Shown here in pieces: positions 43,301-58,612 of a stretch of DNA of 64,000 nucleotides. Source of the stretch: Psychrobacillus sp. FSL K6-4046 (GTDB taxonomy: Bacteria; Bacillota; Bacilli; Bacillales_A; Planococcaceae). Position 1 is the first letter of the stretch. Every line of letters begins with the position of its first letter. The stretch covers positions 310,001 through 374,000 of the forward strand of contig NZ_CP152020.1 in the NCBI RefSeq assembly GCF_038624605.1, in the 5' to 3' direction. Made by a program: the position numbers and the translations under genes. The notes under the pieces were generated by a model. The model made no database searches and was not told the origin of the DNA. It saw only the letters and a list, made by a program, of their open reading frames with translations.

Positions 43301-43470
43301 AAGATCAAAGCTCAAGAACAATCCCAAAAGGTAAGACGATGAAAATGTCGACAAAGCTTAAGATGCCTAAAAACATTAAGGGGTATCAATTAAAAGTAAC
43401 TGCGTGGGAAGGGAAGAAGATAAAGGAGAATATGGTCCCGTTATCGGAAGAGTTTATCATTAAGGAATAA
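40390..43470 (+). CDS. Large secreted beta-propeller protein with carbohydrate-binding-like and Ig-like modules
   Basis: A 1026-residue exported protein. The signal peptide probably ends at SHA-EE near residue 30. Residues 30-195 resemble a CBM4/9-type sandwich (NPGFEEVNNDPSTIPGWSM ... AYFDDVTWE). Residues 200-835 contain repeated beta-propeller blades (DQNVYFAGTGDGKLYRY, ADGKIYGSTYPHAAVFEY, DGKLYMGGYQRGLSIYNP). About 835-910 matches a cadherin-like beta domain (TDATLKSILIGGKTISNFSP), and the rest is Ig-like. No LPXTG anchor. It may bind or cleave the extracellular glycan. A 127-base gap separates it from the GNAT gene; AGGAGG precedes the ATG. Confidence 0.8.
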   Translation: MREFFKIVMITVLCTSVALGNFTPLSISHAEEASSEIRNPGFEEVNNDPSTIPGWSMENNSSTPAVITNTISHEGSHSLHFKDESDKAGSRIFSDRVSVTPGKSYTAKVMTNVVKQTHNIVYEVHYYDKDNRKLTNNVKTELFGNLPKDNWTELKVFTEVPANAAYARLAFYSGVISLTEAYFDDVTWEQAVEDIPLEREYASPVDLGEMVNVQLGQAAVIQKNSLGENEVYYHSNGLPGTFSVLNAETGELKFSKVIEGTEALWAITIGSDQNVYFAGTGDGKLYRYLPEEKKVEELGVNPSDNWVWDLEGTADGKIYGSTYPHAAVFEYDIESGAFRNFGTAKEGQQYARGIGVSDDSIYVGVGTKKHLIKIDRSTGEKEEIIIEGQTGTDGMIENIFIVNDKLFVSAGSVTMLVLDRETHEVINQFSYSNMISDPSPHNNNLIYFKFEKKLYQYDFSENETKEIEGIPLLPDTVRVKDMEWITLSNGETVLAMITQYGEYILYEPIKNEITFIDMNIASQSVEIQALEAGQDGKLYMGGYQRGLSIYNPFTNEREVNIPSFAQPEGIGFLNDKVYYGTYVGAMIYSYDPNKEIDLNSNPKLEYDITDHQDRPFTLTSGDNKLFVGTVPDYGVLGGVLAIFDEDTGKWSQYRNVVEDQSIIGLAYKDGKLYGSTSIWGGLGLDPKAKEAKIFVWDVATSKKIEEFTPAIPGIDETPRMIGEISFGPDGNLWGIVDGTIFAMDPETKEVVKSKTIHPSLYNSSKWLPYRLEWAPDGMLYTTLSRKLVAIDPETLSHKVIVDRFMNNMTVGMNGSIYYAQGNKLQMIAVPETDATLKSILIGGKTISNFSPGKSQYSLPEQERSSLQAIANQTEANIDIKDEGQVTIISVTAPDGKSKKTYSIQWEQQAEIPEYAMEVNVKFQDEKGKEIQKLTKEKKITAAIEVINTKNKNQDILVLMELLDENGKVVDQDQSSRTIPKGKTMKMSTKLKMPKNIKGYQLKVTAWEGKKIKENMVPLSEEFIIKE

Positions 43471-43500
43471 AATCTGGAAAACATATTCATAGGTGGGTGA

Positions 43501-43528
43501 AAAAAGTGCTAAACATAGCACTTTTTTT
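43501..43528 (+). terminator. Terminator of the carbohydrate operon
   Basis: AAAGTGCTA / TAGCAC with loop AACA, followed by seven T residues, 30 bases after the propeller gene. Confidence 0.82.
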
Positions 43529-43556
43529 ACTGATATTTTCTACAGCATAGCATTAT

Positions 43557-43588
43557 AAAAGCCCACAACCCTTTAATGGGCTGTGGGC
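43557..43588 (-). terminator. Terminator of the MsmX-type ATPase gene
   Basis: On the minus strand GCCCACAGCCC pairs with GGGTTGTGGGC across a short loop, followed by TTTT. It lies 10 bases after the gene's stop. Confidence 0.82.
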
Positions 43589-43597
43589 AAATTTATA

Positions 43598-44695
43598 TTA
43601 TCGTATGCGGCTTTCTGTTTCCTTGTCAAAGAAGTGAGCCTTAGACATATCAAATGTAAGCTGTATGTTTTGCCCTGTTTCTAAAAGAGAATCTGCATTA
43701 ATTCGAGCAACGTATTGCTGTTCTCCTAGAGTGGAGTACACCATGAACTCAGCACCTGTTAATTCACATACATCTACATGTGCGTTCACTACGGATTCTG
43801 GTGTTCTAGTCAGATCCTCTGGGTCGGCAGAAATATGCTCTGGACGGATTCCGAAAATAATATCTTTACCGTTGTAGCCTTGCCCATTTAGAAGAGAAGC
43901 CTTTTCTGGAGATAATTTAATCTTATTCTCGCCGGCTACAAAGTAACCGTCTTTTACTTGCCCTTGGAAGAAGTTCATGGCAGGTGATCCAATAAAGCCT
44001 CCAACGAAAACATTTTCTGGGTTTTCATACACGTCTTTCGGTGTACCGACCTGTTGAATAAGGCCGTCCTTCATAACTACTAAACGTGAAGCCATTGTCA
44101 TTGCCTCTGTTTGGTCATGGGTAACGTATACAGTAGTTGTTTTAAGTCGGTGGTGAAGCTTAATAATTTCAGCACGCATTTGTACACGTAATTTGGCATC
44201 TAGATTAGATAATGGCTCATCCATTAAGAACAGCTTAGCATCACGGACGATTGCACGTCCTAATGCCACACGCTGACGCTGACCGCCAGACAAAGCTTTT
44301 GGTTTTCTATTTAGAAGTGGCTCAAGACCTAGAATTTCAGCTGCATTCTTCACTCGCTTGTCAATATCAGCTTTAGGGAATTTTCTTAGTTTTAACCCGA
44401 AAGCCATATTATCATAGACAGACATATGCGGATAAAGTGCGTAGTTTTGGAACACCATTGCGATGTCGCGATCTTTAGGAGCCACATTATTCATAAGCTT
44501 ACCCTCGATACGAAGCTCACCTTTAGAAATTTCCTCTAGGCCTGCAATCATACGAAGTGTTGTCGATTTACCGCAACCAGATGGCCCAACTAAAACGATA
44601 AATTCTTTGTCTTGTACGTGTAAGTTAAAGTCTGAAACTGCAGTAGAAGTATCATCATATATCTTATAAATATTTTCGAGAACCATTTTTTCCAT
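43598..44695 (-). CDS. msmX: MsmX/UgpC-type multi-sugar ABC transporter ATPase
   Basis: A 365-residue ATPase with Walker A GPSGCGKST (37-45), signature LSGGQ (135-139), Walker B LFLMDEPLSNLD and the C-terminal TOBE-like regulatory domain (from about 235). I place the start at 44695, 7 bases after GGGGGG, not at an upstream in-frame ATG. MsmX proteins energise several sugar importers in Bacillus; this one is the obvious partner for the two permeases at 28.5-30.2 kb, which lack an ATPase. It follows a PucR/CdaR-like regulator on the same strand. Confidence 0.9.
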   Translation of the reverse strand: MEKMVLENIYKIYDDTSTAVSDFNLHVQDKEFIVLVGPSGCGKSTTLRMIAGLEEISKGELRIEGKLMNNVAPKDRDIAMVFQNYALYPHMSVYDNMAFGLKLRKFPKADIDKRVKNAAEILGLEPLLNRKPKALSGGQRQRVALGRAIVRDAKLFLMDEPLSNLDAKLRVQMRAEIIKLHHRLKTTTVYVTHDQTEAMTMASRLVVMKDGLIQQVGTPKDVYENPENVFVGGFIGSPAMNFFQGQVKDGYFVAGENKIKLSPEKASLLNGQGYNGKDIIFGIRPEHISADPEDLTRTPESVVNAHVDVCELTGAEFMVYSTLGEQQYVARINADSLLETGQNIQLTFDMSKAHFFDKETESRIR

Positions 44696-44803
44696 TGTAA
44701 ATCCCCCCAAATTGTTTTTTCCATACATTAAGTTTAACAATAGAGATTAATGGCTTATATAGATGATATGCACAAGGTTTTTAGAAATATATTGTGCATG
44801 TTG

Positions 44804-45700
44804 TTATTCATAGTTTACGAGCAAGCTAGCACAATAAACAATGAGTGCTCCGCCAAAGTCACGGACTGATATACCTGTGATTTCCTGAAATTTTGACAAT
44901 CTATAATGAAGTGTATTCCGGTGAATATGTAATTTTTTTGAAGTGATAGAGGCGTTGAAGCCATTTTCGAAAAATGCACGGACGGTTTGCAGTAGCTCCG
45001 TGTCAAATTCAATTGGAATTAACACTTCGTGGTGAATGATTTGTCTCAAGCTTTCCGACATTTCATTGGTTAGGATGGTCGGAAATATGCTTTCGAGTGT
45101 ATAAATTCGTCCAGGAAAATAGTTGCCTATTCCATTAGAAAACCATTCTCTTTCTAAAGCATAACGTGAAGGTGTTTGTTCATCTACAGGATAGAACTTC
45201 CCGATAAAGAGCTGGGCTTTTATAAAAAAATCACTTTCTAAAGCTGAGATAAAGGAAGCCAGGTCCTCTGGAGACTGAGTATATGTAGACTTTTGTTCAA
45301 TCAGTAAGGCATTGTTGGGGGCTACGAAAACAAGTTGCACAGCATCCTCGAAAAATAATTGAACGGCCTTGGCCAAGTCTGTATTTTGAAAGCTATTACT
45401 CTTTATCACAAGCTGTATAATACGAATTTTCTTGCCTGCCTCAATAGGTAGCTCACCAGAGCCTTGAAGAAAACGATTCCACCTTTCAGAAAGTGAGTAA
45501 TCAGAAGGCAATGTTAAATCTACTACTGTGTAGAAAGAAGAGAGTAGCGAAAAGTCCCGAGAGGATACTTCATTCTTCTTTATTTGTATCCACTGATTAC
45601 TAGAAGGATCATGAAAAGTATGAACGTCCTTATCTGTGTTGTTTGGGTATTCTGAAAATTTGTGATAGGAAGGAAAGAGGGAAGATAAATCTTTCAGCAT
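44804..45700 (-). CDS. PucR/CdaR-like helix-turn-helix regulator
   Basis: A 298-residue protein whose C-terminal 60 residues are the PucR-type helix-turn-helix (ENGFNASITSKKLHIHRNTL, then HYRLSKFQEITG). The N-terminal 220 residues have no motif I can name and probably sense a ligand. It lies 108 bases upstream of the msmX-like gene in the same direction, a pairing common in Bacillales, so it may control the shared ATPase or sugar uptake. Confidence 0.75.
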   Translation of the reverse strand: MLKDLSSLFPSYHKFSEYPNNTDKDVHTFHDPSSNQWIQIKKNEVSSRDFSLLSSFYTVVDLTLPSDYSLSERWNRFLQGSGELPIEAGKKIRIIQLVIKSNSFQNTDLAKAVQLFFEDAVQLVFVAPNNALLIEQKSTYTQSPEDLASFISALESDFFIKAQLFIGKFYPVDEQTPSRYALEREWFSNGIGNYFPGRIYTLESIFPTILTNEMSESLRQIIHHEVLIPIEFDTELLQTVRAFFENGFNASITSKKLHIHRNTLHYRLSKFQEITGISVRDFGGALIVYCASLLVNYE

Positions 45701-45802
45701 AGTTGAACTCCTTTCTCATGAATCTCTTTCTGGAACTGTGGTAGATTAGTATGCAAAGTAGACATCTAAACATATATATCAGGAAATTAATTGCTCAAAA
45801 TA

Positions 45803-45839
45803 GAAATCTCCCAAGTTTCATATGAACTCGAGAGATTTC
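45803..45839 (-). terminator. Probable terminator of the Ter-type operon
   Basis: On the minus strand GAAATCTCTCGAGTT can pair with AACTTGGGAGATTTC (one mismatch) across CATATGA, followed by TATTTTG. The T-run is short, so termination may be incomplete. Confidence 0.45.
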
Positions 45840-45909
45840 CTTTACTGTGCGGGCTTGAGATATAAAGTTCAATCTTTCTTGTAAGCTTGTCATGCACTTA
45901 TTAAATTGC

Positions 45910-46488
45910 TTAGCTAAGACCAAATTCCGTTATTAAAGAGGCTAAGCCACCTTGGAAACCGCTCCCAATTGCGTTAAACTTCCACTCATTTCCGTGTCTG
46001 TATATCTCACCAACAACAAGTGCCGTTTCAATGGAAAAGTCCTCTCCCAAATCGTATCGAACTATTTCTTCATGCGTCTCGTCATTTACAATCCGGATAA
46101 AGGCATTAGAAACCTGACCAAAGTTCTGATTCCTAGCCTCTGCATCATGAATAGTAACGGTAAAAACTACTCTATGCACACCGCTAGGGACTTGTTGAAG
46201 GTTCACTAACAATTGCTCATCGTCACCATCGCCATCACCTGTGCGATTATCTCCAGTATGAACAACTGAGCCATCCTCACTTTGAAGATTGTTATAGAAG
46301 ATGAAACTTTTATCGCTTAGTGCCTTTCCATTTGAATCAACTAAGAAAGCAGAGGCGTCTAAATCAAAGTCATGACCACCACTATAGCGATTTGTATCCC
46401 AACCTAATCCAACCATAATTTTTGTTAATCCAGGATTCGTTTTTGTAAGATCAATCTTTTGTCCTTTAGATAGGTTAATAACTGACAT
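45910..46488 (-). CDS. TerD family stress protein (copy c, operon end)
   Basis: A 192-residue TerD-fold protein. It has the calcium-binding acidic signatures DFDLDASAF (about 41-49) and [14 protein letters not shown] (about 77-90), and the conserved C-terminal [11 protein letters not shown]. TerD proteins bind metal and are induced by envelope and oxidative stress; the molecular role is unsettled. Last gene of the minus-strand Ter operon, 41 bases after the TelA gene. Very similar to copy b at 53694. Confidence 0.9.
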
Positions 46489-46529
46489 TTCAATTCCTCC
46501 TTTAAATTAGTGAGTACTGAGTAAGTGTT

Positions 46530-47606
46530 TTATTTTCTTTGACCATCTTCATATTTCTTTTGAAGCTCTTCTAATCGAAGACGACCTTGTTCTCTCATTT
46601 TACGGTTTTCATCTTCAATCGCCTTTGTTTCGTTCATCCCACGCATAATCGTTTCCCACGTTTGCTCAATCGTTTCAATTTTAATACTAGGCTGACCTGA
46701 CATTCTGGCGATATCTACACTTTGCCTAGAAATGTCATTCGCATTTCTTAACAGCATTTCGTTTGTTCGACGGTCTAATTCACTCATCGATTGGGCAACC
46801 AAGTTTTGTCGTTTGGCAGAAATAGCATTGATTAGACCAGTTTTAAATATAGGAATGGTAGTCACAAATGCAGAGTTAATCTTCCCTATAAGCTTGGTAT
46901 TACCTCGTTGCAGCATTCGGATTTGAGGGGCAGACTGATAGGCAACTTGTTTAGCCATTTCTAAGTCATAAATTCTTTGATCTAGTAGCTCAACGGCATT
47001 TTGAAGGGAATTTAAATCCATTAAAACAAGCTGATCGCCTCTCTCTGCTTTTTCCTGTAGGGCAGGGAGCTGCTGGCGTAACTGGTTAAGCTTTAATTCA
47101 CCTGCAACAATATATTTCTCTAGCTCCATGAAATAAGTGAAGTTTTTATCGTAGAGTTCTTCTAACGTTTGAGTAGAAGCTTTCATCTCTTTTTCATATT
47201 TCGTAATTTCAATGAAGACTTTGTCTATTTCTTTCCCCATTGTTTGATACTTATTGAAGAGCTTTTCAATTAGCTTCTCACCCTTTTTGAACACCTTGCT
47301 CAATAGAGATGGCTTTTCTACAAAATCTTTTTTATCGAACTTATCCATAATTTTACCAAGCTGTTTTAAAAGCTCGCTGGATTCTTCCATACTACTAGAT
47401 TTTATTGTGTTTAAAATTCTTCCTGTAAAAGCAGAGATTTCGTTTGCTGGCTCGCGACCAAACTCTAACAACTCTACTTGGTTCTTAGGATCAATTTTCG
47501 CAACCAATTGTAAAACCTGAGGATCTCTCTTCAATTGTGTTTTGAGTTCATTGCTTTCCTCTAAAAGCTGTTCCTTTTGGTCCATTTCTAATTTTTCTAG
47601 TTCCAA
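46530..47606 (-). CDS. TelA/YceH family toxic anion resistance protein
   Basis: A 358-residue, almost wholly helical and highly charged protein matching the TelA (KlaA/YceH) family. It includes LLEFGREPANEISAFTGRIL, the long coiled coil from about 95 to 200 and IPIFKTGLINAISAKRQN near 250. TelA proteins act with TerD and TerC in stress resistance and may bridge to the membrane. It lies 18 bases after yceG in the same order as in B. subtilis. Confidence 0.88.
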   Translation of the reverse strand: MELEKLEMDQKEQLLEESNELKTQLKRDPQVLQLVAKIDPKNQVELLEFGREPANEISAFTGRILNTIKSSSMEESSELLKQLGKIMDKFDKKDFVEKPSLLSKVFKKGEKLIEKLFNKYQTMGKEIDKVFIEITKYEKEMKASTQTLEELYDKNFTYFMELEKYIVAGELKLNQLRQQLPALQEKAERGDQLVLMDLNSLQNAVELLDQRIYDLEMAKQVAYQSAPQIRMLQRGNTKLIGKINSAFVTTIPIFKTGLINAISAKRQNLVAQSMSELDRRTNEMLLRNANDISRQSVDIARMSGQPSIKIETIEQTWETIMRGMNETKAIEDENRKMREQGRLRLEELQKKYEDGQRK

Positions 47607-47624
47607 ACTACTTCAACCCCTATA

Positions 47625-49238
47625 TCATCTAAATTTTTTAAAAATCTTACTTACTACATTCTCTTCTTTAAAAGGCTCATTGAAGGATCTATCATCCATC
47701 CAGTGCAGATCAAACATTCCTTCTTGAACCCATTTTTCTATATCCAAATGTCCTTGCGGATTTACCAATATAATATCTAAACCAAGATGATGCATGATGC
47801 ATAGAGCGTTTGCATCTGCTCTACTCAACTCGGGTCCCTTTTCTTCGTTATAAAGGAAGATAGTTGGAACAAATTGAGGGTAATCAAACGTTTGAAACAG
47901 ACGTATAACAAAATCAGGTATAAACATGGATTGAGAGAATGCATATAATTGTAATTCCTCATGTGTTTCGTTTCCCTGAGGAATAAGAATGGGATCACGC
48001 ACATGCTTAGCAATGGCTTCACCTATCGCTGTTTGTGTACCTGAAGGTAGCTTACCATAAGACCACCAATTAGAAGATTTCATAATCTCAGGATCTAACA
48101 TTCCGTCAGAGTTTAAAGCATTTCGATAATGAAAAACTGGATTTGCCTTTTGTTCCTTAGTAAATGGGAATTGACGAATCACATGGGTATCCTCTCGAGA
48201 GGTTAAGGAATGCACGTTGTTCCAAAAACGCTTTCGATTGCGGTCTATTCCCATGTATTTAGCAAAAACGACGGGAATAGTTACTTGCTGACTGCTTACT
48301 TGAAAGTGAGGCCGAATCATAGCACGTTCTTTAGCTATTAAGAATGCTTCATCCTCGGTGGTTTTTAACCTTAAGGAATTTATGGAATATGATTTAAATT
48401 GAAAAGGCTTATAAAGACCTGAATCATCGTGATGCAAGAGTTCATTTATTTCTTGAGTAGCTCTAAAAGCAACTGTACCAGCAATTTTAGGCATCTCATT
48501 TGGAAATTCACTTGGCTTGCTTGCTATTTTGGGAAATTTAAAGGAATGTTCCTCATCTATTCCAAGCATTTGCATTGGCCAGGATTCATCGCAGGGATTA
48601 AATATGACGATATGAAATCCATAAGCTCCTAAAAACTTTAGAAACCATCTCTCACTAGGAGTAGCATCACCGTACCAGAGGAAGCCGGGCAGACCAGTTT
48701 GAAAGTCTAATTTTTCTAAAACAGGCTCGACATGATTGAATATCCATTTAATCATATCAATCGTTATCCGTCGATACTCATGGTGCTGTGTCCCTTCAAC
48801 ATAGTTAGATTGGAGCTGTTTTAATAAATCGATTAAAACAATCCTTATACGTCTATTTAAATCGGTATCATTGAGTTTTGGGAGTAAAAAATGACCTTCC
48901 AAAAAGGCAACCATTCGATTCGGAGACAGTCCTTTTTCCTGGCGATGTATTTCAAAAAGCTGATTAATAGCACGTAGTTTATCAGGTGCAATATTTTTAT
49001 TAAGAGAATTAGTAAGATTAATCAGCTTACCATCAGAATCATTTAATTGTGTATGCAAAATAGTAAAATACTCATCTTCATCCATAGAAACACCAATAAA
49101 TTGGCATAATAACTGGGGATATGTCAGGCTATCTTGATCGACTGTCACTATGCTAGGGTCTTCTAAAGAGTTTTTTAGCCATTTCCCAATGTTAGATGAA
49201 TCCCACGACTGCATCCTTATTGGATTTAACTTCACCAT
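47625..49238 (-). CDS. yceG: YceG family protein
   Basis: A 537-residue cytoplasmic protein that I recognise from its place before telA/yceH and its length as the YceG family. Internal landmarks are FQTGLPGFLWYGDATPSE (about 201-218), IVIFNPCDESWP and the C-terminal VPTIFLYNEEKGPELSRADA. No catalytic motif is obvious. The family is a constant part of Bacillus Ter operons and probably acts with TelA; its activity is unknown. 15 bases separate it from the HAD gene. Confidence 0.82.
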   Translation of the reverse strand: MVKLNPIRMQSWDSSNIGKWLKNSLEDPSIVTVDQDSLTYPQLLCQFIGVSMDEDEYFTILHTQLNDSDGKLINLTNSLNKNIAPDKLRAINQLFEIHRQEKGLSPNRMVAFLEGHFLLPKLNDTDLNRRIRIVLIDLLKQLQSNYVEGTQHHEYRRITIDMIKWIFNHVEPVLEKLDFQTGLPGFLWYGDATPSERWFLKFLGAYGFHIVIFNPCDESWPMQMLGIDEEHSFKFPKIASKPSEFPNEMPKIAGTVAFRATQEINELLHHDDSGLYKPFQFKSYSINSLRLKTTEDEAFLIAKERAMIRPHFQVSSQQVTIPVVFAKYMGIDRNRKRFWNNVHSLTSREDTHVIRQFPFTKEQKANPVFHYRNALNSDGMLDPEIMKSSNWWSYGKLPSGTQTAIGEAIAKHVRDPILIPQGNETHEELQLYAFSQSMFIPDFVIRLFQTFDYPQFVPTIFLYNEEKGPELSRADANALCIMHHLGLDIILVNPQGHLDIEKWVQEGMFDLHWMDDRSFNEPFKEENVVSKIFKKFR

Positions 49239-49253
49239 GGGTTTTACCTCCTG

Positions 49254-50069
49254 TTAATACATATTATAACAAATATTATGAACTTTTTTTATTATTTCCT
49301 CACCTGCCAATACACCAGTTTGATCGGTTACTTGGACGTGAGATGGGAGGTGCGAATTATTTAATATAACTTCTCCATGCTGAGGGATGAAACCGTAATC
49401 AGCACTCAAAACCATATCTAAGTCTAATAATGAATCACCTGCTGCAATTACTGTTTCTGCCTCTACTCGATCAGCTACAAACTCAAGAGCGAGAGATTTG
49501 TTAATACAATTAGGCATTACGTACAACTTTCTTCCTTGTTTAGACAAGGTAAAGCCTTGCTTGTAAAAGAGTTGGGATAGGTCTTCCAAGTCCTCAACTG
49601 TAAATCTCTCCTCATCTATAATCATATACACAAACCAGTTCTCTGCCTGTAAGGATTTTAAGACGGAGCCTCTTTGAATATAAGGTTCAATCTGTGATAG
49701 TACGTGAGAGACAGAGGTACAGTCGTTCTCAAGCTGTACCTCTATTTTATCAGACCATTCCGGAATAGGTTTACCATTTTCTAATATTACAGCTCCATTG
49801 GAAACAATGGAGTATGTTGGCTTCTCCTGAGGATTATACAATCTAAACAAACGTTCATATTGTTTACTAGTTCTAGTTGTGACCGGCAAAAATTCAATGG
49901 AAGAGGAGAGTTCTTTAAAAATTTCTAGTCCTTCCTTGGTCATGAATGCTGTCGGATTGTTCTCACGCCACTCTACTATGGCTAGATCTTGTTCACTTAC
50001 TTCGAGACCTCTAGATTTTTTACTATATATGAGTGTTCGATCTAAATCACTCGCAAATAGAATAGTCAT
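49254..50069 (-). CDS. HAD-superfamily phosphatase of the Ter biosynthetic module
   Basis: A 271-residue HAD hydrolase. The nucleophile and acid are Asp8 and Asp10 in FASDLDRTLIYS, and the metal motif is GDSLLDLDMV (about 218-227). The C2-type cap resembles sugar-phosphate or mannosyl-phosphoglycerate phosphatases. It overlaps the StiP-like gene by 4 bases. In the published comparative analysis of Ter systems (recalled from memory) such a phosphatase belongs to a set of enzymes predicted to make a nucleoside-like metabolite. Confidence 0.82.
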   Translation of the reverse strand: MTILFASDLDRTLIYSKKSRGLEVSEQDLAIVEWRENNPTAFMTKEGLEIFKELSSSIEFLPVTTRTSKQYERLFRLYNPQEKPTYSIVSNGAVILENGKPIPEWSDKIEVQLENDCTSVSHVLSQIEPYIQRGSVLKSLQAENWFVYMIIDEERFTVEDLEDLSQLFYKQGFTLSKQGRKLYVMPNCINKSLALEFVADRVEAETVIAAGDSLLDLDMVLSADYGFIPQHGEVILNNSHLPSHVQVTDQTGVLAGEEIIKKVHNICYNMY

Positions 50070-51175
50070 ATTAATTCCTCCGATTCTATAAGCCCAATAG
50101 CACGGTAATAAAGGTCAGGGATTATTTCAATAGGTATATTTTTTTCTTGGCATAAGCTTAAAATATGCTTAACAGCTTCCTCATTTTCATCTCTTAAGAG
50201 AATTTTATGAGGTTTCCTTCTTAATAACGTTCTAGTCGTTTCCCCAATACTAGGCTTTACTTTGGTGAGGTCAGAGTTTTTGTAATATTTGTGTGCGATT
50301 TCTTGAGCTACCTGCATGCCTGACCAGGTTCTTTCGTTCTTAATAGGGAATTCATTGAACTGCTTTAGGGTATTTTCCTCTTCAGCAGAAAAATGAGCAG
50401 TTATTTGATCGACAAAAGAGTTGGACACATCCTCATCCTCAAGCTCCGCGTAATACTTGGCCCCATGAAAATCCTCTGGTGACTGATAGGCGTTATTTAG
50501 AATAGTTCTACTGATTAAGCCAGATACTGTAGAATTTAAAAAGGCATTAGGTATTAGAATATCTTCTCTTGTGCTATATAACGTTGCACATCCACCAGGA
50601 TCGGAAAGGACTGCAAGGTCATCGTTTAAGTGAAGACCTTGTTCATTCAATTGTTGAACGGATTTGGTCAACTCTTTTTGAATGGCACCTTTTCCTGTCC
50701 AACCATCTACAAATTGTAAATGATGGTTCGGGTATAAATCACGCACTGTTTTTATAGCATTTTCGTCAATCCCTTTTCCTCTTAAGATGGATACGCTAAA
50801 ATGTGGCCAGTCTAAGCCTAAAAAAGTACGAGCATATCTTCTCATTAAAATTCCTACTGGGCTTCCTGCGCGTGCCAAGGAAATGATGACGACTTGATCC
50901 GTTCCTGCATATTTGTGGACGCGTCTAGTGACAATGCCTACTAATTGAGCTATATAGCTAGAAAGCTGGTTCATAGCCTGATTGTATAAACGTAGATACT
51001 CTGGAGAGGGTCGATATTCTATAGGTAAGGACTCAGAGTAATGATGCCCTAAAGAAAATGCCTTTTCTCGATTATCTATGTTCGATTCAATTTGAATTTT
51101 GGACATATCCTTTAGTAAGAAGGTAATGTCTTCTGGTGAGTAACTAGTTTTAACTAAGTGATCAGTCTTAAGCAT
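50066..51175 (-). CDS. StiP-family phosphoribosyltransferase-like protein with PELOTA-type C-terminus
   Basis: A 369-residue protein of the family labelled 'cysteine protease StiP' in databases. Comparative work on Ter systems instead sees a PRTase-like fold fused to a PELOTA RNA-binding-like domain. Visible are VIISLARAGSPVGILMRRY (about 93-111), the PRPP-loop-like FVDGWTGKG, the DPGGCATLYSTREDILIP block and the C-terminal alpha/beta domain (about 310-365). It overlaps the PRTase-TRSP gene by 8 bases and the HAD gene by 4. I favour the PRTase interpretation. Confidence 0.8.
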   Translation of the reverse strand: MLKTDHLVKTSYSPEDITFLLKDMSKIQIESNIDNREKAFSLGHHYSESLPIEYRPSPEYLRLYNQAMNQLSSYIAQLVGIVTRRVHKYAGTDQVVIISLARAGSPVGILMRRYARTFLGLDWPHFSVSILRGKGIDENAIKTVRDLYPNHHLQFVDGWTGKGAIQKELTKSVQQLNEQGLHLNDDLAVLSDPGGCATLYSTREDILIPNAFLNSTVSGLISRTILNNAYQSPEDFHGAKYYAELEDEDVSNSFVDQITAHFSAEEENTLKQFNEFPIKNERTWSGMQVAQEIAHKYYKNSDLTKVKPSIGETTRTLLRRKPHKILLRDENEEAVKHILSLCQEKNIPIEIIPDLYYRAIGLIESEELI

Positions 51176-52535
51176 CCTCTAATCCCCCTCTGTTAGCTGG
51201 CGATGTAAGGGATAACCATGTGACCGATCCTTTGCTGTGCAAATAGCTTAGTAAAGGAGACCAGGTTTCTTTATTTTTTACAGACTCTGCTACTACTAAG
51301 ATTTGTTCAAATTCATGTTCTGCAACGTTATATAAGTATTGTTCAACACCATTTGAATCAGGCAAAATAAATTTACACTTACTTTTAATTGGATAGTGTT
51401 CTTCTTTTTTTGCAAAGATTGGGCTTCTAGTCGTTGTTTGGATCTTGGTATGTTTACCTAGTGCGAGAGCAATACGGCTTGGAATATATATGTTTTCTCC
51501 TATGCCTATTACAAGCGTTGGTTTATCCCTATCTAATTTCAGCTTCTCAAGTAATTTATGTATCCAGTCGTCCATTGCTGCATGGCTTTCACTCGTCAGG
51601 CCAAATCTACCAGTGAGAGTGCTATAAATTGCATGTTCGCTAAAATAGGGAGTGGTGCACTGAGAGGGGATGTCATCTTCTAAAGACACATGAACTTCTT
51701 CACCCCCTTTTAGATAAGGTATGACTTCCTCTTTGATGGTAGCTGTATTGTGTAGAGTGAATTGACCAGAAAGAATGGGAATTATTTCGGCATGAATCCC
51801 ATTTTGTTTCATTAAGTCAGTAAAGTTGTTTATATTTTCTACACTTCTCCAATCCAGAATAGACAATATTTTAAACTGCTTTTTTGGGAACTTTTCGTTT
51901 AAGGATATAATTAAATTGGAAAGTGTGAGACCAGAGGTTATTTCATCATCGATAAGTACAATCGTTTCCGCTTCCTTTAACACGTTCTCTGAAGCATATA
52001 CTCGGTGAGAGGTAGCATGAGAATGCTCTTCTTCAAAAACAAAAGAAGGGGAGAGATTGATGATTTCTTCACGCGTAGTATGAATATACTGAGCCTCATC
52101 GAAATGATTAAAAACAGCATGACCTAAACCGGTGGCAGTTTCTGCGAAGCCTATAAAGACAGTATTAGTCGGTAATTTAACCTTATATTTTAAAGAGCTA
52201 AGGCTAAGCGTGCGGTCTGACTGGCCGGAATCAATCATTTGAATAATTTCCATTAACTGTGGATGAGCAGGTAAACCTTCATTTTCCATTAACATAGAAG
52301 CAAGAACAGTCCCAGTTCCTAGTGAAAGAGAAGGGTCTACTGGTAGGTGTTTCCCGAGCAGGCGACTAATAAAGAGAAATTGTCTTTTTTTATTTATTCT
52401 TACTCCCATTTCAAAAAGCTTATCTGGATTAAGGTTGTATGGATTATTTTGAACATCAATGGTTAGCTTTAAATTTCCATGTAAATTATATGTTCTTGAT
52501 GTAGCCGATAAAGTCGTGTGTGGTAACATTTTCAT
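51168..52535 (-). CDS. Phosphoribosyltransferase with TRSP domain (Ter biosynthetic module)
   Basis: A 455-residue protein. Residues 1-270 are a PRTase fold with the PRPP-binding signature VLIDDEITSG at 193-202. The C-terminal TRSP domain shows its name-giving motif TTRSP at 368-372, after GENIYIPSRIALALG. It would transfer a ribose-phosphate or related group to a base. The start overlaps the CitE-like gene by 50 bases; a second ATG two codons in is also possible. Confidence 0.85.
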   Translation of the reverse strand: MKMLPHTTLSATSRTYNLHGNLKLTIDVQNNPYNLNPDKLFEMGVRINKKRQFLFISRLLGKHLPVDPSLSLGTGTVLASMLMENEGLPAHPQLMEIIQMIDSGQSDRTLSLSSLKYKVKLPTNTVFIGFAETATGLGHAVFNHFDEAQYIHTTREEIINLSPSFVFEEEHSHATSHRVYASENVLKEAETIVLIDDEITSGLTLSNLIISLNEKFPKKQFKILSILDWRSVENINNFTDLMKQNGIHAEIIPILSGQFTLHNTATIKEEVIPYLKGGEEVHVSLEDDIPSQCTTPYFSEHAIYSTLTGRFGLTSESHAAMDDWIHKLLEKLKLDRDKPTLVIGIGENIYIPSRIALALGKHTKIQTTTRSPIFAKKEEHYPIKSKCKFILPDSNGVEQYLYNVAEHEFEQILVVAESVKNKETWSPLLSYLHSKGSVTWLSLTSPANRGGLEDA

Positions 52536-53622
52536 TTAGCACCCCATATATTTCTGCTTGCGCCAGTATTTTTAAAGCCCAACTATAATGAGGTTTAACC
52601 TCATTCATTTTATTTTTTGAAGGGCTACTTAAAATTCCATTATTTCCATATCTGTTTCCAACGATCATGCTAGCGTCGTCAAACGTCTCCTTAGAAACAG
52701 GATAGACAGCATTAACGATATCTACTTGGCTTGGATGAATGCACGTTTTACCGTAAAATCCATTCAAAAGGTCTAGTTGAACTTCTTCCCATAAGATGTC
52801 CTTACTTTTATCATCAAAGTATTCAAATACAGGACCTGAAATTATAAAGTTATCCTCATAGCGTCTAAACGTGTTTAGAATTTCTGTTAAACAATCTCCA
52901 ATTAATTGTAGCTCGTAAACAGTTCTATTATATGGCCGTCTAAGGCTAAAAAGGCTAGAGAAGTCTGTTGCCCCAACTCTAATGGTTAATATGAGACGTT
53001 CGTAATTCAAGAAAATCTTATAAAGCTTTTGGAGCTCCTCTTGTCGAGACTCTTTAAAAATAATCTCTTTTGATTCAATAATAGGCAAACCATATAGCGT
53101 AACGGATCTTGCTTGGTTTAAGGAATCCAAGCATGAAAAGAAATCATTAGCATTAGTAGAATTACATTTAGGGAAGACTATACCCGTGATAAGGTCTAAA
53201 TCATTTCCTAACTGACTAGCAATTCTCTGTAACTGGTCTACGCTTCGAATTCTTATAAATAGGAGGGGCAAATCATACTGTAGGGTAGCATTTGCGCTGA
53301 TCGCTTCAGCTAAGGTGTGCAGTTGTTCTACTACATTGTTTTCGGCTTCTGTTAGCGCGTTATCTGAAATAGAATCCTCTAAACACATAATTACACTAGT
53401 AAGATTTTCAAAAGATCTCTTGATTAATTTTGAAGAAAAATTACTCATTAGGCCAGGAATATATAAAGTGGCACCCATAGCAATCCCCAATTTTAGCTTG
53501 TCTGTCGTTTTTGAAAATTCTTTAGGAGGTAGATGAAAAAAATTATTCACTTCATTTTCACTTAAACCCTTAAAATGTCTGATGGTAATCACTCCTTGAA
53601 AGAAGAAGGGGCTATAGGTCAC
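52486..53622 (-). CDS. CitE/HpcH-like aldolase or lyase of the Ter biosynthetic module
   Basis: A protein of about 365-378 residues with the TIM-barrel fold of citrate-lyase beta-like enzymes. It has VIMCLEDSISDNA (acidic metal-site region, about 78-90), LPLLFIRIRS (strand with basic residue), TIRVGATDFSSLFSLRR and GKTCIHPSQVDIVN, a strong CitE signature. The start is unsettled. GTG at 53622 has no ribosome site, while AAGGAG at 53592-53597 points to a start near 53583, where the codon is ATC. It follows an internal terminator and presumably makes or cleaves a C-C bond in the predicted nucleoside-like product. Confidence 0.8.
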   Translation of the reverse strand: MTYSPFFFQGVITIRHFKGLSENEVNNFFHLPPKEFSKTTDKLKLGIAMGATLYIPGLMSNFSSKLIKRSFENLTSVIMCLEDSISDNALTEAENNVVEQLHTLAEAISANATLQYDLPLLFIRIRSVDQLQRIASQLGNDLDLITGIVFPKCNSTNANDFFSCLDSLNQARSVTLYGLPIIESKEIIFKESRQEELQKLYKIFLNYERLILTIRVGATDFSSLFSLRRPYNRTVYELQLIGDCLTEILNTFRRYEDNFIISGPVFEYFDDKSKDILWEEVQLDLLNGFYGKTCIHPSQVDIVNAVYPVSKETFDDASMIVGNRYGNNGILSSPSKNKMNEVKPHYSWALKILAQAEIYGVLNENVTTHDFIGYIKNI

Positions 53623-53649
53623 CCAAGTTCTATTAAATATACTCTTTGT

Positions 53650-53680
53650 AAAAAAAAAGCAAGGAGAAAACCCTTGCTTT
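53650..53680 (-). terminator. Internal terminator between the TerD pair and the biosynthetic genes
   Basis: On the minus strand AAAGCAAGG / CCTTGCTTT with a 7-base loop, followed by an uninterrupted T-run. It begins 14 bases after the TerD copy b stop. As the downstream genes have no strong promoter that I can see, it probably acts as a leaky attenuator that keeps TerD output above enzyme output. Confidence 0.8.
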
Positions 53681-53693
53681 AGAAAAGATTTAA

Positions 53694-54269
53694 CTAGTTT
53701 AAGCCAAAGTCAGAAACTAAAGCTCCTAATCCACCTTGGTAGCCGCTACCAATTGCATTAAATTTCCACTCGTTATTGTGGCGATACAATTCACCTACAA
53801 CTACTGCTGTTTCAATTGAGAAATCTTCTCCTAAATCGTAGCGAATTAGTTCTTCCTGAGTGTCTGCATTGATAATTCGTACGTATGAATTATTTACTTG
53901 ACCAAAGTTTTGACCTCTAGCTTCTGCATCGTGAATAGTAATGCTAAAAGCAATTTTTTCAATAGAACTTGTAACGTTTGCAAGGTTTATATTAACTTGC
54001 TCATCATCGCCATCGCCTTCGCCTGTGCGATTATCTCCTGTATGAACAACTGCTCCATTACTACCTGAAGTATTGTTATAAAAAATAAAATCAGCCTCAG
54101 ATGCACATTTTCCACTGCTATTTAATAAGAAAACGGAAGAGTCAAGGTCGAAGTCGTTTCTGCCGTCATATTTGTTTGTATCCCAGCCTAGACCTACAAT
54201 AATGTTTGTTAACCCTGGATTACCTTTAGTTAAGTCTACCTTTTGTCCTTTAGATAAATTAATAGCCAT
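53694..54269 (-). CDS. TerD family stress protein (copy b)
   Basis: A 191-residue TerD-fold protein with the metal-binding motifs DFDLDSSVF and [14 protein letters not shown], and the ending [11 protein letters not shown]. Closely related to copy c at the operon end, so the operon probably grew by duplication. It follows copy a by 16 bases and is the last gene before the internal terminator, so it should be among the most strongly expressed. Confidence 0.9.
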
Positions 54270-54285
54270 GTTTATATCCCACTCC

Positions 54286-54897
54286 TTATAAGTATTTGTT
54301 TGCTATAGATGAAATATCAGTGTCTGCTGTACCTTCTCCAATAGCCGAGAATTTCCACTCTTCACCATCGCGATATAGTTCCCCAAGGAAAAGTGAAGTT
54401 TTCCCAGAATAATTATCAGAAAGATTATAATGTACTAATTCTTGTCTTGTATCGTTGTCCACTAAACGAATAAATGCATTTTTTATCAAGCCAAAATCTT
54501 GTTTTCGTTGTTTTGCTTGGTAAATATTAACGACAAATAAAAGTCTATGAACAGAACTTGCAACTGATTTAAGGTTTACGTTAATTACCTCATCGTCTCC
54601 GTCACCATCTCCGGTACGGTTGTCACCCATATGTACCACGCTGCCATTGTTAGAAGTTTTGTTTCCAAAATATATTAATTGTTGTTTGGAAGATAACTTT
54701 CCATTTTCGTTTAAAAGTAGAACTGAAGCGTCACAGTCTATAGCAGCGCCACTAGAACCACCGCCAAAAAGACTACCTAAAAACCCACCGCTTTTTTGAC
54801 TTACTGGATCCCATCCAAGTCCAACCATGACACTTTTTAAAGAAGACCTACCTTTAGTAAGATCAATTTTTTGTCCTTTTACAAGATTAATAGCCAT
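54286..54897 (-). CDS. TerD family protein with glycine-rich insertion (copy a, operon start)
   Basis: A 203-residue, diverged TerD protein and the first gene of the operon. It has MVGLGWDPV, then a Gly/Ser-rich insertion ([14 protein letters not shown], about 37-50) before [10 protein letters not shown], where the first acidic ligand pattern is weakened. [13 protein letters not shown] is intact. The C-terminus lacks the GSGYQGG tail ([18 protein letters not shown]). This type corresponds to the lead TerD gene (YceC-like) of Bacillus operons. Strong GGGGAGG ribosome site. Confidence 0.87.
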
Positions 54898-54930
54898 TGA
54901 TAAACCTCCCCAAATTTCTTTATTTAATTA

Positions 54931-54961
54931 ATTTTACGTAACTACCGCTTAAATAGTTTCA
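54931..54961 (-). promoter_or_regulatory. ECF (sigma-W/M-type) promoter of the Ter operon
   Basis: On the minus strand TGAAAC (complement of 54956-54961), 17 bases, CGTA (complement of 54935-54938). The sigma-W consensus is TGAAAC-N16/17-CGTA. Predicted transcription starts about 30 bases before the ATG, leaving just enough room for the ribosome site. The yceC operon of B. subtilis is known to respond to sigma-W and related factors. The rest of the 254-base gap up to 55151 shows nothing firm. Confidence 0.68.
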
Positions 54962-55151
54962 TTAAGTAATAAAATTTTTATCGTTATTCATACTAATATA
55001 TTTTAACGGTTTACATGGGAAATTGGAAATATATAAGCCGATATCAGAACAAAGACTGTGACAATTTAAATTCGGTATCTGCTTTCTCCTGAAGTTTTCA
55101 GCAGAGCCACGCAGAAGTTAAGTGTGAGTCACTTGTTGCTTCATCCGAGCT

Positions 55152-56321
55152 TTATTTCTTTTGATAGAGAATAGCGGCATGCCCTAACGTTTTAGCTGCT
55201 GTTAGCATGGCCTTTTCATCAAAATCAAACATCGGGCTATGATGTGGGTAGACATCTCCATCAGGCATAGCTCCGGTGAAGAAAAACGTCCCTGGAATTT
55301 GTTCGAGATAATAGCCATAATCCTCACCAATCATTAAAAGCTCCGATTCCTGTACCTCTTTGACATCTGGGATTTGTCTTGCTATTTCAGCAAGATATTC
55401 TGTTTCTTCTTTATGGTTAATGACTGGAGGGTATCCTCTTTCATATGTGAGTGTATAGGTACAGTCTGCAGTCAGACAAGTTCCGTCTAACACGCGTCGT
55501 AACTCATTCTCCATTAAATCTCTTACAGCAGGAGTAAATGTTCTAATGGTTCCGCTCAATTTAACCGAATCAGCGATAATGTTAAATGCATTGTCGGCAA
55601 CAAATGAACCGACAGAAAGAACAGCCGACTCTACCGGATTGACTCTTCTTGAGACAATTTGCTGCAAATTAACTACTAGTTGTGAAGCAGCCAAAATGGC
55701 ATCTTTTGTGTCATGAGGATTAGCGCCATGACCACCGCGCCCTTGAATTTTGATGATAAAACGATCTGCTGCAGCCATAATTGGGCCGGAGCGATAGGCA
55801 ATTGTGTGAAGGGGAGTTTGAGACCATAAATGGGTACCAAAAATTACATCTACGTCATGTAAGCAGCCAGCTTCTATCATTGGTTTTGCGCCACCTGGTG
55901 CATATTCCTCCGCATGCTGATGTATAAATACGTATTCTCCGCTCAGTTCATCTTTTAACTCATGTATAGTACGGGCAAGAATGAGCAGTGTAGCAGTATG
56001 TCCATCATGTCCACAGGCGTGCATTACACCAGGTACTGTAGATTTATACGGAACTTCCTTCTCATCTTGAATGGGTAGTGCATCAAAGTCTGCACGCAAA
56101 GCAACCGTTTTCCCAGGGCGTGCCCCTTTAACTCTTGCGACAACACCATTTCCGCCCACATTGGCGTCAAAAGGTATACCAAGTTGTAAGTAAAAGTTTT
56201 GAATATATTTGGCAGTGTTAGTCTCTTGAAAGGATACCTCAGGATGCATATGTAAATACCTTCTAATTGTTACCATGTCATTAAAACCTTCTTCTAATCT
56301 TCGAAATAAATCATTAGTCAT
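55152..56321 (-). CDS. M20 family metallo-amidohydrolase (N-acyl amino acid/hippurate hydrolase type)
   Basis: A 389-residue zinc/manganese amidohydrolase with the metal motif HACGHDGHT (101-109, ligands Cys103 and His105), HQHAEEYAPGG (Glu pair near 137), GRGGHGANPH in the lid domain, and IGEDYGYYLE with the last Glu/Asp ligands. It removes acyl groups from amino acids or similar amides in the cytoplasm. Monocistronic, divergent from the YhcN gene; AAGAGGTG precedes the ATG. Natural substrate unknown. Confidence 0.88.
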   Translation of the reverse strand: MTNDLFRRLEEGFNDMVTIRRYLHMHPEVSFQETNTAKYIQNFYLQLGIPFDANVGGNGVVARVKGARPGKTVALRADFDALPIQDEKEVPYKSTVPGVMHACGHDGHTATLLILARTIHELKDELSGEYVFIHQHAEEYAPGGAKPMIEAGCLHDVDVIFGTHLWSQTPLHTIAYRSGPIMAAADRFIIKIQGRGGHGANPHDTKDAILAASQLVVNLQQIVSRRVNPVESAVLSVGSFVADNAFNIIADSVKLSGTIRTFTPAVRDLMENELRRVLDGTCLTADCTYTLTYERGYPPVINHKEETEYLAEIARQIPDVKEVQESELLMIGEDYGYYLEQIPGTFFFTGAMPDGDVYPHHSPMFDFDEKAMLTAAKTLGHAAILYQKK

Positions 56322-56432
56322 CTTAAAAACACCTCTTTTATATATTTTTAATTAACAATTACTTCTAAAAATTATAACAGATAATAGAAAGTCTATTTTA
56401 AATTATTTAAATAATCTATTTTTTATTTTGGT

Positions 56433-56461
56433 GCATATTTTCTTACAGAACTCACATCATA
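56433..56461 (+). promoter_or_regulatory. Sigma-G/F-like forespore promoter of the YhcN gene
   Basis: GCATA (56433-56437), 17 bases, CATCATA (56455-56461). The forespore consensus is GHATR-N18-CATNHTA; both boxes fit and the spacer is one short. It lies about 35 bases before the start of a family known to be made in the forespore. Confidence 0.5.
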
Positions 56462-56496
56462 CGACTGTAATAATTTATTGAAAAGGAGAAAATAAA

Positions 56497-57045
56497 ATGA
56501 TAAAAAAGATGAAGATATTAATCGCTATTCTTATAATAGGGTTCTTAACAGCATGTGGAAATGATGATGCTAAGGATGATAAAACAACAGATACGACAAC
56601 GGATACAACTCAAGATGGGAATATGGATCCTAATGCAACAGTTGATACTGGGAACGATGGAGAAATTGGTGAAGAAGAAGGAAAAGACGTTTCTACAAAC
56701 GGAGATCAAAAGGTTGATGTAGCAGATGACGTGGCTGCAAAAATTGCAGAATTGGATGAAGTAGATGTTGCTCATGTGTTAGTGACGGATACAAATGCAT
56801 ATGTTGCTGTTAAAGCGAAAGAAGGAACAGAAGATAACGATGAGTTAAAAACTCGTATATCTGAAAAAGCTAAAGAAGGTAAAGGTAATTTAAATTTTGA
56901 GAACGTGTATGTATCTTTGGATCCTGATTTTGTTGGCCGTATGGAAGAGTACGGAACAAAGATTAAAGCAGGGGAGCCGGTTGAAGGATTCTTTGATGAG
57001 TTTACAGATACAGTACAACGTGTATTTCCTGATACAGCTAAATAA
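56497..57045 (+). CDS. YhcN/YlaJ family sporulation lipoprotein
   Basis: A 182-residue lipoprotein with lipobox FLTAC (Cys20), then a Thr/Asp-rich linker (about 25-72) and a compact C-terminal domain. That domain contains AAKIAELDEVDVAHVLVTDTNAYVAV, the signature of the YhcN/YlaJ family found in spore membranes. This identifies the organism as a spore former. AAGGAG precedes the ATG. Closed by a bidirectional terminator. Confidence 0.85.
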   Translation: MIKKMKILIAILIIGFLTACGNDDAKDDKTTDTTTDTTQDGNMDPNATVDTGNDGEIGEEEGKDVSTNGDQKVDVADDVAAKIAELDEVDVAHVLVTDTNAYVAVKAKEGTEDNDELKTRISEKAKEGKGNLNFENVYVSLDPDFVGRMEEYGTKIKAGEPVEGFFDEFTDTVQRVFPDTAK

Positions 57046-57078
57046 AAAAGGCGAAGAGGTAATTCTCTTCGCCTTTTT
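57045..57078. terminator. Bidirectional terminator between YhcN and symporter genes
   Basis: A perfect 14-base stem, AAAAAGGCGAAGAG with its complement, loop GTAATT, A-rich and T-rich flanks for both directions. It starts at the last base of the YhcN stop codon. Confidence 0.92.
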
Positions 57079-57079
57079 C

Positions 57080-58612
57080 TTATTTTAACCCGATATTTGC
57101 TTTGACATCGACCTCTGCATATTTCTTCTGATCTGCTCTTGCTCCTATTAATGTGCCTATATAGCCACCCAAGAACCCAGCAGGTACTGAAAAAATCGCA
57201 GGGTTAGTTAATGGGAAAAGAGCTGTACCATTAAATAAATGAGTGCCATCTGTTCCCCAAAGGTTTGGACTTAAGGAAACTAATACTAGAGCAGTAACTA
57301 GCCCGGTGACAATTGCTGTCATAGCTCCAGTGGTATTGAACCTTTTCCAATAGATGGTGTAGATGATCACCGGTAAATTAGCACTTGCAGCGATACAGAA
57401 TGCTAGTGAAACCAAGAACGCAACATTCATCGTTTGTGCTCCTAAGGCTAAAACAATAGATAGAAGTGAAACCCCAACAGAAGCAAAACGAGCCGCTCTC
57501 ATTTGCTGTTTTTCAGTTGCTTTTCCTTTCTTTATGATTTGTCCATAAATATCATGGGCAAATGCAGATGCACCTGATAGCACTAGTCCTGCTACTACTG
57601 CTAATATAGTGGCGAAGGCAACAGCAGATACGAAAGACATGAGGATATCCCCTCCTAGTGCCTGCGCTAGTAATGGTGCTGCCATGTTTCCTGCTGAGTT
57701 TGCAGACATAATGTCGCTAGCTCCTACAAAGTAAGCAGCTCCGAAACCTAGGAAAATAGTAAGAACATAGAAGATACCTACAATCCATGTTGCATACACC
57801 ACAGAAGAGCGGGCAGTTTTAGCATCTTTTACTGTGAAGAATCGCATAAGAATATGAGGTAAGCCTGCTGTACCTAATACTAAGGCGATCATCATAGAAA
57901 TTGTGTCCAAGCCATTCGTATACTTTACTCCAGGATTTAAGAAGTTTTCTCCTTGCTCTGTAACCGTTTTCATCTCAGTGAACATACCAAGGATATTAAA
58001 GTTGAATTTCCATAATACTAAAAACGAGATAAGGACTGTCCCAATCATTAACAATACAGCCTTAATGATCTGTACCCAGCTCGTTGCAGCCATTCCACCC
58101 CAAAGAACATAGATGGTCATCATTGTTCCTACGATTAGTACAGCAATCCAGTAATCAATGCCTAGTAATAGTTGTATTAGTGCACCTGCACCCACAAGCT
58201 GTGCAATCATATAGAACAAAACGATTGTAATAGTGCTAATCGCGGCAGCTCCACGTACTTTCTTTTGGTTAAAGCGTGCATTAATCATATCGGCTAGCGT
58301 ATATTTCCCCAAATTTCTTAGAGGCTCTGCTACGATGTAAAGTACAACTAAATATGCTACTAAGTAACCTATACTATAGAAAAAACCATCAAAACCAAAA
58401 AGTGCGATAGCTCCGGCAATTCCGAGGAATGATGCAGCAGAAAGGTAATCTCCTGCGATGGCTATCCCATTTTGCCAGCCAGACAAACCTCCACCGGCAG
58501 TGTAAAATTCACTAGCAGAGTTAGTTCGTTTGGACGCAATGTATGTGACAAATAGAGTTAATGCTACGATTCCTACAAAAAATATAAGACCGACTGTACT
58601 CATGCCATTCAT
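57080..58612 (-). CDS. actP: Sodium:solute symporter, acetate permease (ActP) type
   Basis: A 510-residue SSS-family transporter with about 13 helices. Hallmarks are FYTAGGGLSGWQNGIAIAGD (about 36-55), SAASFLGIAGAI and the YVLWGGMAATSWVQIIKAVL helix. It is coupled by a 4-base overlap to a DUF485 gene, the same pairing as yjcH-actP in E. coli, which supports acetate or another short monocarboxylate as substrate. Acetyl-CoA synthetase is not nearby. Confidence 0.85.
   Translation of the reverse strand: MNGMSTVGLIFFVGIVALTLFVTYIASKRTNSASEFYTAGGGLSGWQNGIAIAGDYLSAASFLGIAGAIALFGFDGFFYSIGYLVAYLVVLYIVAEPLRNLGKYTLADMINARFNQKKVRGAAAISTITIVLFYMIAQLVGAGALIQLLLGIDYWIAVLIVGTMMTIYVLWGGMAATSWVQIIKAVLLMIGTVLISFLVLWKFNFNILGMFTEMKTVTEQGENFLNPGVKYTNGLDTISMMIALVLGTAGLPHILMRFFTVKDAKTARSSVVYATWIVGIFYVLTIFLGFGAAYFVGASDIMSANSAGNMAAPLLAQALGGDILMSFVSAVAFATILAVVAGLVLSGASAFAHDIYGQIIKKGKATEKQQMRAARFASVGVSLLSIVLALGAQTMNVAFLVSLAFCIAASANLPVIIYTIYWKRFNTTGAMTAIVTGLVTALVLVSLSPNLWGTDGTHLFNGTALFPLTNPAIFSVPAGFLGGYIGTLIGARADQKKYAEVDVKANIGLK

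Follow-up and report, generated by a model that had tools for sequence, protein, structure and literature searches.

The Ter-type operon described here lies in a 64,000-nucleotide stretch (the window; positions 310,001 to 374,000 of contig NZ_CP152020.1) within the 3.89-Mb single-contig genome of Psychrobacillus sp. FSL K6-4046. It is moderately likely to be a stress-induced operon in which a constant part, TerD, YceG and TelA, is joined to a biosynthetic part, CitE-PRT-StiP-HAD, that depends on phosphoribosyl pyrophosphate (PRPP); PRT stands for the phosphoribosyltransferase (PRTase) of the PRTase_2 family with a TRSP domain. The evidence computed here comprises gene content, conservation, co-occurrence, promoter- and terminator-like sites, the predicted fold of StiP, and a genome in which no Ter-type ATP-grasp gene was found. 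The operon is genuine and conserved and belongs to a known kind; the version found in the window species shows a lineage-specific reduction.

According to the list of open reading frames (ORFs) and Pfam, nine minus-strand genes run from 54897 to 45910 in the order TerD-TerD-CitE-PRTase_2/TRSP-StiP/PELOTA_1-HAD-YceG-TelA-TerD (Table 1). All genes were present in the order and at the coordinates given by the original prediction, which had been made from the sequence alone. Its family assignments, including those of the four middle enzymes, were borne out by profile searches, in which 9/9 operon proteins scored above the curated Pfam cut-off. The overlaps of 50, 8 and 4 bases between enzyme genes, from which co-translation had been predicted, agree with the ORFs as listed, with the caveat that the CitE start at GTG 53622 is not conserved; co-translation is plausible.

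All enzyme reading frames were open in the window. The ratio of nonsynonymous to synonymous substitutions (dN/dS) between the window and its sister species was 0.03–0.14 in eight of the nine operon genes; the value of 1.32 for CitE was set aside as artefactual, as the matched stretch probably crosses an in-frame stop of the sister species and the codon register is broken. At columns at least 95% conserved in the other sequences, the window deviated at 2/89 positions in StiP, 1/62 in PRT, 0/35 in CitE and 0/25 in HAD.

Conservation was followed in 112 StiP-carrying loci with their surrounding stretches, some of them short or ending early; the duplicate loci L084 and L092 were excluded from this set and from the 97 junctions considered below, and were included in the count of 108 loci used for the promoter. 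The gene order CitE-PRT-StiP-HAD was found in 106 of the 112 loci, with six exceptions (L076, L079, L106, L154, L164 and L167), of which L076 and L164 lie on contigs shorter than 12 kb. PRT and StiP were fused in one open frame at seven loci, and CitE and PRT at one. TerD was present within the examined stretch at 108/112 loci, so the four genes were not widely found away from Ter neighbours; among the loci lacking it (L080, L113, L154 and L164), L113 belongs to a genome (G045) with TerD about 12 kb off, beyond the examined stretch. TelA was seen in at least 70/112 loci, a lower bound because the profile used misses divergent TelA, one of which was shown by Pfam.

In a sample of 151 genomes of the family, StiP was found in 65, TerD in 70 and YceG in 70. 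The predicted link to Ter genes held throughout, with TerD in 65/65 and YceG in 64/65 StiP genomes, and five genomes carried TerD without StiP; TerD and YceG are therefore taken as the constant part, to which the enzyme module is added. Across the phylum StiP was patchy (21/398 genomes, that of the window included). It was common on plasmids, in 2568 of 72,556 records, mostly of Enterobacterales. Three records of phages also contained it, a single phage accounting for two. The window StiP was 99% identical to that of Psychrobacillus sp. BL-248-WT-3.

Two of the loci with exceptional gene order differed in content. At L106 (G032), CitE has shrunk to a match over 27 positions that contains an in-frame stop, the PRT, StiP and HAD frames are kept, and the lyase is seemingly lost. 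At L154 (G452), StiP and HAD stood without PRT, CitE or TerD in the examined stretch of a genome lacking YceG, a possible minimal pair.

A Ter-linked biosynthetic module, attributed to Anantharaman, Iyer and Aravind (2012) by papers citing that work, is described together with the prediction of a nucleoside-like metabolite in passages of PMC7824862, PMC8115787 and PMC12054061. As in the window, this module places a PRTase, a HAD enzyme, a PELOTA/PRTase protein and a CitE-like lyase beside the Ter genes TerD and TelA. The window differs from it in that a Ter-type ATP-grasp was not found in the genome, no TerC adjoins the operon, and YceG follows HAD. A Pantoea plasmid copy, with the order ATPgrasp_Ter-PRTase_2-HAD-StiP-CitE, also differs from the window; it is surrounded by annotated TerZ, TerA, TerB, TerC, TerD, TerF, TerW, TerX and TerY. 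Closer in arrangement were the operons of Paenibacillus and Cohnella (L055, L058, L062 and L070), which share the CitE-PRT-StiP-HAD order with TerD genes upstream, and differ by an ATP-grasp after HAD, a TerC before CitE and no YceG in the stretches.

With the yceCDEFGH operon of Bacillus subtilis, on a gene-to-family assignment that we presume, the window shares TerD paralogues, YceG and TelA. Control of that operon by stress and extracytoplasmic function (ECF) sigma factors is in print: it stands in a SigW-regulon table (part of PMC12563154), and a passage of PMC10550928 describes yceCDE-meeF as constitutively expressed and further induced by stress sigma factors. According to the same passage, the B. 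subtilis operon contains TerC (YceF/MeeF), which is absent from the window operon. A StiP search of the B. subtilis control genome gave no match.

The structure model of StiP reached a predicted local distance difference test (pLDDT) score of 94.5, and its fold matches were PRTases. The longest match covered residues 636–994 of 8a0m, overlapping the range 599–1036 that the structure paper of this capsule multienzyme assigns to CriT. StiP, named a cysteine protease in databases, thus looks, in the model, like a ribose-transfer enzyme. The predicted metabolite module is in print as a Ter-linked module (in passages of PMC7824862 and PMC8115787), and the nucleoside-like product originally proposed becomes one option, as the fold evidence equally allows O-ribosylation. 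The four enzymes probably yield a molecule that carries ribose.

A PRPP-loop-like motif, D157-G-W-T-G-K-G, was almost invariant among the 112 StiP sequences, with D157-G158-W159-T160-G161 invariant and a second invariant aspartate, D137, elsewhere. The classical PRPP loop consists of two adjacent acidic residues followed by TG. The StiP motif thus has one acidic residue where classical PRTases have two, and CriT likewise splits its acidic pair. The C-terminal PELOTA_1 domain showed weak sequence similarity to L7Ae/eL8 in solved structures (best E-value 0.015), and G311-E312-x-T314-R315 with the residues that follow was nearly invariant. No cysteine was invariant among the 112 sequences; the most conserved, Cys212, occurred in 108 of them and is Phe in the window StiP. 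In distant copies, residue 212 was Ile in Pantoea and in phage ME3, Ala in Curtobacterium and Cys in a phage-clone copy, and the PRPP-loop-like motif was retained in the Pantoea, ME3 and Curtobacterium copies despite the change at 212.

The other enzymes kept their motifs as well. In PRT, the PRPP-loop-like residues D196, D197 and E198 and T204 were each at least 97% conserved (100 sequences), as were D8-L-D10, G211-D212-S213 and D216 of HAD (109 sequences), residues whose roles in these families we presume. PRT also showed weak similarity to the PRTase_III-A and ShosT models of PADLOC (best E-value 6.5e-6), the former of which we take to belong to retron systems. In YceG, two PF14266 domains stand in tandem within one frame (47646–48365 and 48432–49142, minus strand), and frames of about 800 amino acids with up to three PF14266 matches each were seen elsewhere in the phylum. 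For the CitE-like protein, citrate lyase proper was rejected, as the NCBIfam RipC and CitE matches fell far below cut-off; the family is the PF15617 C-C bond lyase.

The start of CitE deserves separate mention. In the sister species (L053), a stop lies upstream, and an ATG is found 39 bases inside the listed start. At the position where L053 starts CitE with ATG behind AAGGAGTG, both the window (53583, minus strand) and G104, a genome of the window's own species, read ATC; the window frame is open upstream to GTG 53622.

A pairing of a PRTase-fold transferase with a HAD phosphatase, as in the window, is known from Bcs3 (CriT ribofuranosyltransferase with CrpP HAD phosphatase) and from gPRT/PRP. 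Unlike these, the window has no recognised glycan genes beside the module, carries an additional CitE lyase and a second PRTase, and its StiP matched no solved PRTase chain by sequence at E-values up to 1. No paper was found whose title links Ter systems with ribofuranosyl, PRTase or PRPP in a search that did not cover most subscription journals, so the link may be published.

What follows is inferred, from each catalytic step and the order of the steps to the acceptor, the product and the levels of expression. An ECF sigma factor of SigW/SigM type would switch on transcription at the first TerD, and a hairpin 3' of the second TerD would hold the expression of the enzymes under that of TerD. 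The CitE-like lyase may make or break a C-C bond and so supply a small acceptor, to which PRT, StiP or both would transfer 5-phosphoribose from PRPP, either on nitrogen (nucleoside-like) or on oxygen (ribofuranoside-like). The HAD enzyme would then strip the 5'-phosphate. Elsewhere an ATP-grasp ligase, whose gene is absent in the window clade, may then add an amino acid, and the product would act on the TerD/TelA system as a ligand or signal, or serve it as an envelope precursor.

SigW/SigM-type promoters follow the consensus TGAAAC-16/17-CGTA. In 52 of 108 loci, a site of the form TGAAAC-N15-18-CGT lay no more than 250 bp from the first TerD. The whole set contained 141 matches in 4.28 Mb (both strands, the 52 loci included), so that about 0.01 would be expected per 250 bases; the site was aligned among congeners. 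The promoter is called because its position before the first TerD recurs across loci, not from a single match in the window; a putative ECF-type (SigW/SigM) promoter precedes the operon.

The same stem core of the terminator-like hairpin was found at the TerD-enzyme junction in 25/97 loci, namely every tabled locus of genera g1, g7 and g12, where CitE directly follows TerD, and a terminator-like hairpin of any kind in 36/97. The set of 97 junctions leaves aside L075, L078 and L079 (gaps over 700 bases) and loci lacking CitE or an upstream same-strand TerD. As the stem core is invariant among loci, it offers no covariation evidence. Because the hairpin recurs at the TerD-CitE junction, the enzymes are probably expressed below TerD, as judged from sequence, and as it separates the TerD pair from the enzyme genes, the nine genes may not be expressed evenly as a single unit. 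After the hairpin, a block conserved in the genus (window about 53627–53590, minus strand) resembles TTTGGGT-N-ACCTA ... CTTCTTCATT and could be an operator or antiterminator.

Neither TerC nor ATP-grasp lies in the window, as had been predicted. The genome search found one unlinked TerC, at 2.78 Mb, and no Ter-type ATP-grasp; the sole ATP-grasp matches lay in one 1074-amino-acid ORF that, by its length, is carbamoyl-phosphate-synthase-like. TerC occurred at least once in 151/151 family genomes, so its absence from the window tells little. The module does sit at the position of yceF (TerC) relative to the B. subtilis order, as first proposed; it is not a replacement, as 45/97 junctions hold both (TerD-TerC-CitE), the other 52/97 being TerD-CitE. 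Within the genus, TerC adjoined the operon just after the last TerD in 3/13 module-bearing genomes (G041, G087 and G117), which makes its loss or movement likelier, and none was found beside the operons of the window clade (G000, G104 and G096).

ATP-grasp was found in the examined stretch at 11/112 module loci; most sampled copies thus have no nearby ATP-grasp, and it was taken as optional, not defining. In family f2 it followed HAD in G172, G255, G368 and G525, four genomes that all lack YceG. An unlinked Ter-type ATP-grasp was present in 10/13 module-bearing congeners versus 0/4 congeners without StiP (p 0.015, uncorrected for phylogeny), and was not found in the window clade. One genome of another genus (G061) had ATP-grasp without StiP, and the ATP-grasp matches of G061 and G111 run across one TAA. 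Parsimony suggests a single loss in the window clade, and parsimony only, because deep nodes of the genus tree are weakly supported.

In the ten congeners (L176–L185) the unlinked gene formed a mini-locus, ATPgrasp_Ter following a B3/4-domain gene, with one ORF between them in 2/10. A proline-tRNA ligase, recognised by eye, lay further on in 9/10 stretches, and a divergent TerD followed ATPgrasp_Ter in 4/10 (27 bits in the one tested). The window genome, together with its two nearest relatives and the four StiP-less congeners, had no ATP-grasp at the same site, where the two flanking genes were separated by other sequence of about 1.6–4.4 kb.

YceG and ATP-grasp were near-exclusive in the examined stretches, with both in 1/112 and neither in 27/112; at L153 an ATP-grasp match was present and its genome (G301) has YceG elsewhere. 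YceG as a substitute for ATP-grasp was rejected: ten congeners hold both genome-wide and YceG tracks TerD (69/70 TerD genomes), which makes YceG a TerD partner.

Several observations weigh against the PRPP-dependent reading. The single acidic residue of the StiP motif makes a non-catalytic binder possible. Among the Foldseek matches listed, TM-scores were at most 0.28 when normalised to the query and 0.57 when normalised to the target, often with a high root-mean-square deviation, so the match covers the PRTase core of StiP only; a StiP profile run against solved-structure chains up to an E-value of 1 found no PRTase or capsule-multienzyme chain, leaving a likeness by fold only. Taken in the window alone, the promoter-like site is at chance level (at least one match in 27/100 shuffles, mean 0.30), and the hairpin is not significant either, with five terminator-like sites in the region versus 7.5 expected from shuffles. 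The ATC at the conserved CitE start of the window species could lead to low CitE output, the TRSP domain and YceG are without assigned function, and the genomes counted are mutually related.

A defence role, in which the enzymes would make a nucleotide-like messenger that TerD senses when phages or colicins attack, appears unlikely. In print, Ter systems have been tied to phage resistance and PRTase/HAD products read as signals, and a passage of PMC7824862, together with the annotated region of the phage, describes a relatively complete set in jumbo phage ME3. However, no PADLOC model matched eight of the nine operon proteins at an E-value of 0.01, PRT matched only weakly, and the promoter type points to envelope stress.

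It is rather improbable that StiP instead modifies RNA, its L7Ae-like domain holding structured RNA and its PRTase domain adding phosphoribose as Rit1 does, with HAD trimming the phosphate, in a form of stress RNA editing that yields no free metabolite. The PELOTA_1 domain and its nearly invariant residues fit this proposal, as do the longest fold match, to a capsule multienzyme acting on a hydroxyl, and the Rit1 precedent of phosphoribose added to yeast initiator tRNA (a passage of PMC7694415). CitE, PRT/TRSP and the ATP-grasp partner, however, fit poorly into such a path, and no RNA target was seen, there being no Rfam match at gathering thresholds in 40000–60000 (a weak test). The specific version, in which StiP would be a PRPP-dependent, L7Ae-guided O-phosphoribosyltransferase that ribosylates structured RNA under envelope stress before HAD removes the 5'-phosphate, is considered quite unlikely. 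If true, bacteria would have their own counterpart of Rit1-type RNA ribosylation, carried by thousands of plasmids (the 2568 records) under the label of cysteine protease, with the ATP-grasp-less Psychrobacillus clade as its minimal natural form.

About as doubtful as RNA modification is the proposal that the module of the window clade is a decaying remnant, its ATP-grasp and operonic TerC gone, its CitE start changed and the ancestral product no longer made. The missing ATP-grasp and adjoining TerC in all three clade genomes, the ATC codon and the Phe at StiP 212 would agree with decay, whereas the open enzyme frames, the few deviations at conserved columns, the low dN/dS in eight genes and the 27/112 loci that keep StiP with neither ATP-grasp nor YceG (some stretches being short or truncated) speak against it. 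That StiP is a cysteine protease and the module partly a proteolytic regulator is very improbable: the Pfam name, a protease annotation in 12/15 plasmid records among those listed (of 2568) and the frequent Cys212 stand against the Phe, Ile and Ala at this position in motif-bearing copies, the PRTase fold matches, and PMC5571608, a passage of which refers to Anantharaman and co-workers for the joining of a PRTase with a PELOTA/L7Ae-type domain.

Ter systems are widespread among plasmids and occur in many genomes, and their chemistry has long been unsolved. The PRPP-enzyme hypothesis can be assayed directly and is set against the protease label on StiP. The reduced natural module, without ATP-grasp or adjoining TerC, stands beside congeners that bear ATP-grasp and so offers a ready metabolomics comparison. 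Together, the putative ECF-type promoter and the hairpin hint at the conditions worth examining and at a reason for possibly lower expression of the enzymes than of TerD.

Table 1. Genes and candidate regulatory sites of the Ter-type operon, in window positions.
Feature	Position	Strand	Family match (E-value) or remark
ECF-sigma-type promoter-like site, TGAAAC-N17-CGTA	54935..54961	minus	about 37 bases 5' of first TerD start; sole match in window
TerD 1	54286..54897	minus	PF02342, 1.9e-72
TerD 2	53694..54269	minus	PF02342, 2.9e-83
Intrinsic-terminator-like hairpin with T-run	53656..53680	minus	between TerD 2 and enzyme genes
CitE-like C-C bond lyase (C-C_Bond_Lyase)	52486..53622	minus	PF15617, 7.5e-106; start uncertain: GTG 53622, GTG 53592 or ATC 53583
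PRTase_2 with C-terminal TRSP domain (PRT)	51168..52535	minus	PF15609, 4.3e-62; PF12500, 8e-32
StiP with C-terminal PELOTA_1/L7Ae-like domain	50066..51175	minus	PF11202, 6.8e-94; PF15608, 2.2e-25; predicted PRTase fold
HAD-type phosphatase	49254..50069	minus	PF08282 (Hydrolase_3), 1.2e-8; PF05116
YceG_bac protein	47625..49238	minus	two PF14266 domains, 1.4e-79
TelA	46530..47606	minus	PF05816, 8.3e-102
TerD 3	45910..46488	minus	PF02342, 1.3e-86

Downstream of the operon, at 40390–43470 and 43598–45700, the window encodes a plus-strand protein of 1026 amino acids that bears a carbohydrate-binding domain, as well as a MalK-like ABC ATPase and a helix-turn-helix regulator of PucR type. ORFs of similar length lie downstream of the operon in the sister species (L053), but not in other congeners.

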